Source: a virus | Virus record (IMG/VR): IMGVR_UViG_3300009180_000021 | Coordinates: 87,783 to 151,782 of that record | DNA: 64,000 nt | Strand: one strand, 5' to 3' | The notes under the pieces: model-generated | The model's database searches: none | Seen by the model: the letters and a program-made list of their open reading frames with translations, nothing else | Told to the model about the DNA's origin: nothing | Made by a program: the position numbers and the translations under genes | In this document: positions 57,139 through 60,626 of the stretch, one piece after another | How the letters are laid out: each line of letters begins with the position of its first letter | How positions within the stretch are numbered: position 1 is the stretch's first letter

Positions 57139-57174
57139 GAATAAGTGGCTAATCTTACAACTATGGTGAATATT

Positions 57175-57606
57175 ATGCGTTTGGGATTTATTTTAACGTT
57201 TGCTTTTATTCTTTTTTATACTAGTGATACCAAAGCTCAGTTTCCTTCTCAACAGCCTATGAGTAATATGAGCGGTTTAAACATGGCTTTTGGCTGTGGT
57301 TTTATGAATAATTTTGGTGGTGGAACTCCAAATGGAAATATGATGCTAGGTAGTGCCGCTGCCACTATGGCCCAAGGATCTTACGTACTAGATCAGTCCC
57401 AAGCTAATATAAATAATCAGACTGTTGAATCAATGTATTATGATAATAGGCTAAAAAAAACAAGAACATTTTTTGAAAATAGACAAATCAATAGTTATTA
57501 TAGGGATATTGAAGAGTGGCAAAAAAATACTCGTAAAGAGTTTAGGAATGCTGGTATGTATGATAGAGAAGCTATTGAATATATCTATAGTATATCTAAA
57601 CCCTAG
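57175..57606 (+). CDS. secreted Met/Asn/Gly-rich protein
   Basis: About 143 aa. RLGFILTFAFILFYTSDTKA followed by QFPSQ is a signal peptide with an AKA-type cleavage site. The mature part is rich in Met, Asn and Gly. It contains a helical segment (SAAATMAQGSYVLDQSQ) and NRLKKTRTFFENRQINSYYR, a pattern that I recall from secreted Planctomycetota proteins. An in-frame ATG at 57163 and GTG at 57145 are alternative starts. It has its own promoter and ends convergently, overlapping the subtilisin stop by 4 nt. Confidence 0.7.
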   Translation: MRLGFILTFAFILFYTSDTKAQFPSQQPMSNMSGLNMAFGCGFMNNFGGGTPNGNMMLGSAAATMAQGSYVLDQSQANINNQTVESMYYDNRLKKTRTFFENRQINSYYRDIEEWQKNTRKEFRNAGMYDREAIEYIYSISKP

Positions 57607-58541
57607 AGAACAGGATATAATATTCCATATCCTTGATATTTTTTAATTCCAGCATATCTAGGATCAGCTAAATTTTTTGCTTTCTTTTTGAATACACTCA
57701 CATAATCTTCTGATCTTTTTAACATAGTTCCTATTGCTGAGTATTCTATTTGTCTAGCATGACTTAGTAGTAATGCTGCACATCCTACAGCAAATGGTGT
57801 GCTCATACTAGTTCCACTCATTAGAGCATACTTATTTCCTGGCACACAACTTAATATTTCATGTCCTGGTGCTAGAAAATCAAGAGTCTCCCCACTGCAT
57901 GTAAAATTAGTACGACAAAGATTTTTATCTATAGCGCCTATTGCTATAGTATGATCATATTTAGCTGGATACATTATATCCACTTGTTCTCCAGAATTCC
58001 CAGCTGCACAAAAAATTATAGACCCTTTATTAGAAGCATATTTTATAGCTCTCTCAAGGGGCTCCGAAGCTTGTGGACTACCTAAACTCATAGAGATAAA
58101 ATCAGCGTCATTATCTGCTGCCCAAACTATTGCTTCTACTATTAATTCCAATCTACCTTGACCATCATCATTAAGAGCTTTAATAGGAATTATTTTTGCT
58201 TTTGGTGCTACTCCAACCATACCAACTTGGTTATCTTCTGCTGCTATTGTTCCCGCTGTATGTGTTCCATGACCATTTCTATCTTGAGGATCTTTTCCAG
58301 GCTCAACGAAGTTCCTACCCTGCAATAAATTATTTTTAATGTCTGGATGATTTAAATCACAGCCAGTATCTATTACTGCAACTTTAACTCCTTCTCCTTT
58401 AGATAATTTCCATTGATTCTCAATATTAAATTTTTTAATTTCCCATCCAGAAAATTGTGCAATATCTGGCCCAAGACCATGAATATCTTCTCTTATGTAT
58501 GGTAATAATCCACAGTCATTTTTCTTTTTTCTTAACATCAT
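57603..58541 (-). CDS. intracellular-type subtilisin (S8) protease
   Basis: 312 aa from ATG 58541 (second ATG at 58538). Catalytic D58 (AVIDTGCDLNHPD), H91 (NGHGTHTAGTIA), N182 (AAGNSGE) and S245 (SGTSMSTP). There is no signal peptide. Near the N-terminus GLLPYIRE matches the LIPY motif by which intracellular subtilisins block their own active site before activation. It likely acts inside the infected cell or is released with lysis. A longer reading from 58634 overlaps the trypsin gene out of frame and is rejected. Confidence 0.9.
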   Translation of the reverse strand: MMLRKKKNDCGLLPYIREDIHGLGPDIAQFSGWEIKKFNIENQWKLSKGEGVKVAVIDTGCDLNHPDIKNNLLQGRNFVEPGKDPQDRNGHGTHTAGTIAAEDNQVGMVGVAPKAKIIPIKALNDDGQGRLELIVEAIVWAADNDADFISMSLGSPQASEPLERAIKYASNKGSIIFCAAGNSGEQVDIMYPAKYDHTIAIGAIDKNLCRTNFTCSGETLDFLAPGHEILSCVPGNKYALMSGTSMSTPFAVGCAALLLSHARQIEYSAIGTMLKRSEDYVSVFKKKAKNLADPRYAGIKKYQGYGILYPVL

Positions 58542-59280
58542 TTTCTCCCATAGTATTATTAATCCAGTCAATATATAAACTAATTCTAGTATGGCAACTT
58601 TCATCTCCATAAGTAGAGTCTGGTTTTCCATCATATCCTAAAACTGAAGAATTTATTCCTGCTAATTTTCCATCTATAAATAATCCGCCACCACTATCTC
58701 CACTACATATTAAATATTCTAGTTCTGTAACTTTTTCATTTTTTCTAGAAGGAGAACATATTAATACTTTTTTATCTGTTCTATCTATGAAATTTGATCC
58801 ACCTCTTATTTTTCCGTCTGATATTTTAACTCCAGTATTAAAATTACCTGTTAATCCCCATCCTGCTATTGAACAAATTTTTCCAACCTCATCTTGTTTT
58901 TCATACAATGGAGGGTAGAATCCTATTTCTATTGGGTCTGGAGCATATCCTATAGCTATGTCTGATTCTCCAAAAACATTAGTATCATATTTTGGATTTA
59001 TAAAAACTTTGGATATCTTGTATTTTTTATCTTTTATATTTACCGTCCAACTGTGGCAGTTTTCTACCACATGAGCAGCGGTTATAATCCAATGAGGATT
59101 AATAACAACAGCTGATCCACAAGATATTCCTCTGCCATCAAGACAACATAATTTAACTACATGATTAAATTTTTCCCCATACTCCACGTATTTAGAATCA
59201 AGAGTATCTGGATCAATTGTTCCAGCAAAAGACACAGTAGAATATAGAAGAATGCCCATGATTAAAGTGAGTATTTTCAT
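58516..59280 (-). CDS. secreted trypsin-like serine protease (S1)
   Basis: 254 aa. Signal peptide (KILTLIMGILLYSTVSFAG). Catalytic H70 (IITAAHVV), D107 (GESDIAIGY) and S196 (GDSGGGL), with several Cys typical of S1 folds. Exported protease, followed at once by a subtilisin whose start lies in its last codons (26-nt overlap). ATG at 59280 with AAGGAG 6 nt upstream. A late-type motif lies 59-69 nt upstream, inside the HNH gene end. Confidence 0.9.
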   Translation of the reverse strand: MKILTLIMGILLYSTVSFAGTIDPDTLDSKYVEYGEKFNHVVKLCCLDGRGISCGSAVVINPHWIITAAHVVENCHSWTVNIKDKKYKISKVFINPKYDTNVFGESDIAIGYAPDPIEIGFYPPLYEKQDEVGKICSIAGWGLTGNFNTGVKISDGKIRGGSNFIDRTDKKVLICSPSRKNEKVTELEYLICSGDSGGGLFIDGKLAGINSSVLGYDGKPDSTYGDESCHTRISLYIDWINNTMGENDVKKKEK

Positions 59281-59315
59281 TAATAACTCCTTCGGGCAAA
59301 GATAAGGAATAAATA

Positions 59316-59621: not shown

Positions 59622-60626
59622 TCATAATACCTTTGCTGCAATTAAGCATCCTTTTGCTACCGCATGTAAGGGGTCTGCGGCGTGCTTGACACTCTTAATA
59701 ATTAGAGGAAAACCATTTTCTTCAAGTTTTTTAGCGAATAGTTCTATGTATCCTTTTGCCTGAGAAGTACCACCGGCCACAACCACAGTTAATGGGTCTT
59801 TAAACTTTGGTAGTGACTTATGATCTGTGAGAGCAGCACTCAATTGTTTGGTAGTATAATCTATTAGCCTCTCATAGTAAGCCGAAACTGCACCTAGAAT
59901 AGGATTATCGTTTGGTTCACCGATAGTAAAACCACCATTTTCTTTCTCTGCTTGAACAACACTATCTGCTTCTCCAGTAGCAACAGCACTCATCCTATCA
60001 ATCCAGTCACCACTTTTTGTTGTACTAAATACTACAGTAGGTTCGCCATTTAGCATTACGCAAACATTAGTCATCCCGGCACCACAACTGACAGCAATGC
60101 CAGTATAATCAGTATTCTCTAATTCAGCATAACATAAAGCTTCAGCTTCATTAATTGCTCTAGCGGCATACCCACATTCACCCAAAATAGTCTTGACTAC
60201 ATCTTCATGATATCCAACATCAAAATCCTCATCTTCTTGATCAACTGGTTGTGCAGGAACGCAGAATACTAGCTTCTCATTAGGCTCTGAGGCTTGCCCT
60301 GCGACCTCTTTTAAAATAAAAGCAAGTACACGCTTGGCATCTTTTTCTTTAGCCGAAACGACTCCCTTGTACATGGGTCTTTTTGCAGTATCATTTCTTT
60401 CGATAGCTTTTTCTATTGCGTCTTTTCCTAATAGTATGAATGATCCATCAGTGTCTTTAATGAAAACTTTTCCCGCTAATCCTTTTTCAATCATCTTTGT
60501 AGCTACTGGAGTTGTTGGTTTGATAATATAAAATGCGTCCCTAAATTCCTTATATAGCACACTACCTTTAGCAGCATCTCTTGATAAAACGATATAACTT
60601 GTTCCAACGTCAAGACCACAACTCAT
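59622..60626 (-). CDS. actin-like ATPase (ParM/MreB/Hsp70 superfamily)
   Basis: 334 aa. Phosphate 1 motif SCGLDVGTSYIV at the start, phosphate 2 candidate GIAVSCGAGMTN, and adenosine motif VVVAGGTSQAKG. In phosphate 2 the usual Asp is Ser, so ATP hydrolysis may be slow. A filament-forming protein could position or partition phage DNA within the cell. Coupled to neighbours on both sides. Confidence 0.8.
   Translation of the reverse strand: MSCGLDVGTSYIVLSRDAAKGSVLYKEFRDAFYIIKPTTPVATKMIEKGLAGKVFIKDTDGSFILLGKDAIEKAIERNDTAKRPMYKGVVSAKEKDAKRVLAFILKEVAGQASEPNEKLVFCVPAQPVDQEDEDFDVGYHEDVVKTILGECGYAARAINEAEALCYAELENTDYTGIAVSCGAGMTNVCVMLNGEPTVVFSTTKSGDWIDRMSAVATGEADSVVQAEKENGGFTIGEPNDNPILGAVSAYYERLIDYTTKQLSAALTDHKSLPKFKDPLTVVVAGGTSQAKGYIELFAKKLEENGFPLIIKSVKHAADPLHAVAKGCLIAAKVL

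Follow-up and report, generated by a model that had tools for sequence, protein, structure and literature searches.

Adjacent genes for an S1 protease with a predicted signal peptide and an intracellular-type subtilisin are conserved in a group of large uncultivated tailed phages

Two overlapping genes on the minus strand of the 64-kb window analyzed here, which is the final part of a virus record of 151,782 bases, encode serine proteases of known kinds in a pairing that is strongly conserved and apparently undescribed. Given the domains, catalytic triads, signal peptide, inhibitory motif, and adjacency, all taken from sequence and models, we consider it reasonably probable that the genes form a module, conserved across a large group of big tailed phages that are uncultivated, in which an autoinhibited cytoplasmic zymogen is combined with an exported S1 protease. 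The features on which this interpretation draws are, in window coordinates:

58516..59280, minus strand: S1 (trypsin-family) serine protease gene, 254 aa, assigned by Pfam, AF2, Foldseek, and the triad
57603..58541, minus strand: S8 subtilisin gene of the intracellular subtilisin (ISP) type, 312 aa, without a signal peptide, assigned by Pfam, AF2, and Foldseek
58516..58541, minus strand: overlap of the S1 and subtilisin reading frames, 26 nt
59287..59292, minus strand: Shine-Dalgarno sequence AAGGAG of the S1 gene, from the sequence
58545-58549, minus strand: Shine-Dalgarno sequence GGGAG of the subtilisin gene, within the S1 gene
59224..59280, minus strand: predicted Sec signal peptide of the S1 protease, MKILTLIMGILLYSTVSFA, cut before GTIDP
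59071..59073, minus strand: S1 catalytic His70, invariant in 100/100 sequences
58960..58962, minus strand: S1 catalytic Asp107, invariant in 100/100
58693..58695, minus strand: S1 catalytic Ser196 (GDSGGG), invariant in 100/100
58497..58508, minus strand: LLPY motif at subtilisin residues 12-15, corresponding to the inhibitory LIPY/F motif of ISPs
58368..58370, minus strand: subtilisin catalytic Asp58, invariant in 81/81 sequences
58260..58262, minus strand: subtilisin catalytic His94, invariant in 81/81
57807..57809, minus strand: subtilisin catalytic Ser245 (GTSM), invariant in 81/81

Each gene has a good ribosome-binding site of its own, and both products matched their Pfam families well above the curated cut-offs (PF00082 at 193.6 bits for the subtilisin and PF00089 at 67.9 bits for the S1 protein); PF13365 also matched the S1 protein, at 31 bits. 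The subtilisin start was assigned to the ATG at 58541. A longer in-frame start at 58634, which adds a hydrophobic stretch, was rejected; it falls within the coding sequence of the S1 gene, and the extension is missing from more diverged relatives such as L004, L005, and L007, indicating that the short start is right and that the subtilisin lacks a signal peptide. A sequence-only reading of this DNA had described two overlapping serine proteases, the first with a signal peptide and the second without; its coordinates, the 26-nt overlap, and the two families were right, and the difference in predicted leaders was borne out at the level of sequence. On the plus strand, a convergent gene at 57145-57606 shares 4 nt with the end of the subtilisin gene; it encodes a small protein that probably has a signal peptide, and relatives are found in the same place in 21/78 loci.

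The S1 protein has a double-barrel chymotrypsin/trypsin-type fold with a His-Asp-Ser triad, as assigned by Pfam, AF2, Foldseek, and alignment; the pLDDT of the AF2 model is 88.5, and the best Foldseek matches are kallikrein 7, chymotrypsin, and chymase. Its earlier designation as a trypsin is apt for the family and fold (PF00089, S1) but not for specificity. Chymotrypsin position 189, which we assigned by counting back six residues from the catalytic Ser, is Leu in the window protein and Leu, Ile, Met, Cys, or Phe across the family, never Asp (100/100); with a hydrophobic residue at this position, trypsin-type (Arg/Lys) specificity is not expected and was rejected. A signal peptide starts nearly all S1 relatives, and at the junction the +1 residue is Gly in all 100 sequences, mostly followed by TIDP, while the -1 residue is A, G, S, or C in 99 of them. 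The conserved hallmark of these proteins is this putative mature N-terminus, GTIDP, right after the predicted signal-peptide cut. Since the Asp beside the catalytic Ser also is invariant, we suggest that an N-terminus freed by signal peptidase could take the Ile16-like activating role known for chymotrypsin.

No relatives of the S1 protein were found among 50,697 phage records. Secreted bacterial S1 proteases with a mature GTIRxD N-terminus (from Okeania, Roseofilum, Planctomycetes, and Bowmanella) share the signal peptide and the S1 catalytic core, with ~28-36% identity. These bacterial homologs have the same A/G[TV]IR.D junction, the slash marking the cut, and have A/G[TV]I..D..D..Y in common with the phage proteins; no subtilisin gene lies beside them in the loci examined. 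In two genomes (L176:10259-10906 and L161:10299-10937), we also noted a second S1 paralog downstream of the pair; it has ~215 aa and no evident signal peptide.

Self-inhibited ISPs have been described from bacteria, where their role is protein recycling; they are homodimers, and their activation and propeptide removal are calcium-dependent. The phage subtilisin begins MMLRKKKNDCG, has neither a signal peptide nor the classical prodomain of ~80 residues, and enters its mature domain at about residue 40. The oxyanion Asn is invariant in the 81 aligned sequences, as is Pro14 of the N-terminal GLLPY (residues 11-15); Leu12 is found in 80 sequences, the other having a gap, and residue 15 is Tyr in 56, His in 20, and Phe in five. 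A motif of the form L-[LFM]-P-[YHF] is present in essentially all relatives, followed by a conserved propeptide segment, RED..GL...Q..GWEI. The ISP propeptide pattern derived from 152 sequences, [LVI]-[IFLV]-P-[YFH] (PMC6220982), was found by search in 79/80 of the phage subtilisins, and the His that is rare at its fourth position also occurs among them. In ISPs, the propeptide spans the active site, with the Pro shifting the scissile bond beyond its reach, and most mutants in which the propeptide Leu or Ile was changed had increased activity (PMC6220982). Cleavage directly after LLPY, as proposed in the sequence-only reading, is disfavored, since the ISP Pro holds the scissile bond off the active site and the cut lies further downstream, at ~residue 18 for maturation of the B. 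clausii ISP (PMC6220982). Judged by its conservation, the N-terminal motif is under strong selection, a putative ISP-type safety catch in a large phage group.

The predicted structure is consistent with this assignment. The AlphaFold model, built from 17 sequences, has a mean pLDDT of 91.7, and its propeptide strands at residues 9-12 and 15-20 have block pLDDT values of 93 and 87. In Foldseek comparisons, the model aligned with the B. clausii ISP precursors 2x8j and 2wwt over 310-314 columns (query TM up to 0.85), whereas mature subtilisins aligned over only 284-291 columns (TM ~0.80-0.81); such a full-length match to the precursors is what a propeptide bound in the ISP position would give. 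The earlier identification of GLLPY as a LIPY-type self-inhibition motif is upheld by conservation, the published pattern, AlphaFold, and Foldseek alike. Compared with the ISPs (B. clausii 2wv7, 2wwt, and 2x8j, and the Planococcus ISP), the phage protein has the S8 domain, the lack of a leader, and the short motif-bearing propeptide in common, and it superimposes over its full length on the precursor structures, with ~33% identity over the aligned structures. Unlike bacterial ISPs, it is phage-encoded, has the extra conserved RED..GL...Q..GWEI segment, and adjoins a gene for a predicted exported S1 protease. By plain sequence, its best PDB match is AK.1 protease rather than an ISP, with ISPs close behind. 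The large Bacillus phages Goe3, Goe8, SP-15, and FADO also encode S8 proteases (40-46% identity), with N-termini that include RLIPA in Goe8 and YVIPH in Goe3. These related motifs indicate that phage subtilisins resembling ISPs also occur outside the present group, though the Bacillus phage enzymes, unlike the window subtilisin, lack an S1 partner, the 50,697 phage records containing no relative of the S1 protein.

The association between the two genes was assessed in relatives collected from viral contigs, comprising 80 non-identical complete subtilisins (81 subtilisins and 100 S1 sequences in the alignments). Of the 80 subtilisin loci, 66 have an S1 gene as a direct neighbor, on the upstream side (no more than 60 nt away) in 62 and immediately downstream in four, though the virus records are related and these counts are not independent events. 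Among the other loci, an S1 gene lies within 2.5 kb in five and further away in two; the remaining seven have none in the fetched locus, with an S1 relative elsewhere on the contig in three and absent from the other four, all of which are fragments. In most relatives the genes overlap or are separated by at most 25 nt, and the S1 gene is the most conserved neighbor (74/78 loci, versus 56 for RuvB, 56 for HNH, and 52 for volactin). Because adjacency recurs in 66/80 relatives, we conclude that the pairing is not due to chance, which supports the functional link between the two genes drawn in the sequence-only reading. Adjacency is kept in the four loci where the order is reversed, and alleles have been exchanged independently; subtilisins that are 73% identical occur with S1 partners that are 42% identical, and S1 proteins that are 82% identical with subtilisins that are 54% identical. 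The reversed orders and discordant allele histories together indicate that the pair has been retained while its members were exchanged. The association is weaker in the other direction; 19 of the 99 S1 genes with at least 2.5 kb of flank on both sides have no nearby subtilisin, suggesting that the S1 enzyme also works alone; several of these 19 contigs, which are fragments, carry no such subtilisin anywhere. In the library searched, we found no relevant paper on ISPs encoded by phages or on the pairing of S1 and S8 proteases in a phage.

The genomic setting was examined in a 244-kb relative, where the genes for RIIA-like, RIIB, primase-like, RuvB, volactin, HNH, S1, and subtilisin proteins lie in this order on one strand (RIIB assigned by PHROG at 3e-72, the RIIA-like and primase-like proteins by eye) and the terminase and portal genes are ~80 kb from the protease pair. 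The module thus sits in the replication/rII region and not in the head module. In the window, the actin-like protein adjoining RuvB (59622-60626, minus strand) matches the Pfam Volactin family at 207 bits, in a phage, and is ~75-85% identical to its relatives. In 15 loci (e.g., L161:5844-6347), a gene ~2.8 kb upstream of the subtilisin gene encodes a thioredoxin-like protein (WCPHC/WCPSC) with an N-terminal hydrophobic segment. The 151,782-base record encodes DNA polymerase, primase, DnaB, a UvsX-like recombinase, and ribonucleotide reductase; no head genes were found in it, and it probably is a fragment. A single 5,132-codon ORF (G000:C1:13918-29316), probably the tape measure, and other giant tail ORFs of up to 3,753 aa also were observed.

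We considered a bacterial origin of the pair, as close genome hits were obtained in bacterial assemblies (L190, L191, and L192, labeled Chitinophagia, Flavobacteriales, and Alphaproteobacteria). These contigs share RuvB, volactin, and other neighbors with the phage group, and the bacterial origin was rejected, the hits being phage contigs binned into bacterial assemblies; the host consequently is not fixed by them. The 244-kb relative also encodes a second subtilase of an unrelated type (535 aa, L274:16611-18218, minus strand), which begins MGKKAISLTVESLENRKLLS. Its leader ('VESLENRKLLS') resembles the LEPR-type leader that is common among Planctomycetes, which may hint at the host but is a single instance.

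For the two-compartment module, we infer the compartments, activation, timing, and substrates of both proteases as follows, with localization predicted from sequence. Within the host cytoplasm, the subtilisin would be synthesized in self-inhibited form, as an ISP-type zymogen, its first ~20 residues, with Leu-Leu-Pro-Tyr, folding back over the active site and the Pro protecting the chain against cleavage. The S1 protease would be co-translated with the subtilisin and then exported through Sec, and removal of the signal peptide, baring the N-terminus GTIDP, may be the activating event. Late in infection, cleavage of the propeptide, either autocatalytic or in trans, could switch the subtilisin on, with calcium entry upon membrane failure as a possible extra trigger. 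The two enzymes together would digest proteins on either side of the inner membrane, which could serve recycling or make release easier.

The same genes could instead act early against the host or its defenses, the subtilisin removing cytoplasmic host proteins and the S1 protease altering the envelope, for example for superinfection exclusion. The neighbors indeed are replication and RIIB-like genes rather than late structural ones, and host-targeting phage peptidases have been discussed (PMC7824862); neither trypsin nor subtilisin is mentioned in that survey. The jumbo-phage ClpP and similar bulk-targeting peptidases it covers likewise are patchy, phage-encoded, and proposed to target host proteins, but ClpP differs from the S1/S8 pair in fold and mechanism (PMC7824862). 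An autoinhibited general protease is better suited to bulk proteolysis after a delay than to specific cleavage early on, and we regard early host-directed action as unlikely.

We assign a similarly low probability to an activation cascade, in which the exported S1 protease would meet the subtilisin zymogen at lysis or membrane failure and cut its propeptide, confining degradative activity to lysis. The tight co-translation and very strong adjacency of the genes, the zymogen-like N-terminus of the subtilisin, and the conservation of the propeptide beyond LLPY (RED..GL...Q..GWEI) all are in line with a cascade. However, the two genes exchange alleles independently of each other, arguing against tight enzyme-substrate matching; the propeptide is the same in L006, which has no adjacent S1 gene; ISPs shed their propeptides without a dedicated partner (PMC6220982); and the predicted compartments differ until lysis, so that the enzymes would meet only at membrane failure. 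Given this late meeting, the interchangeable partner alleles, and the same propeptide without an adjacent partner, the cascade is possible but not favored over the two-compartment reading. A lysis-timed fuse, with the zymogen and an exported activator held across the inner membrane, the S1 protease activated via signal peptidase and GTIDP, and mixing at membrane failure starting bulk digestion of the host, appears quite improbable.

Virion maturation, with one or both proteases processing capsid or giant tail proteins, is very unlikely: very large tail proteins are encoded (5,132 and 3,753 aa ORFs) and searches of 11 large relatives yielded no S77/S78 prohead protease (the S77 positive control gave no signal), but a diverged head protease may have escaped the S77/S78 models, a signal peptide is unsuited to cytoplasmic virion assembly, and the pair lies beside RIIB, primase, RuvB, and volactin genes ~80 kb from the terminase, portal, and head genes of the 244-kb relative, a distance that disfavors a head-maturation role. 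Neither protease matched PF03420 or PF04586 (S77/S78), nor did any protein of the window phage (again with no signal from the S77 control).

If the two-compartment reading is correct, the pair would represent a testable way for phages to control proteolysis in two compartments, through two enzymes with built-in control.
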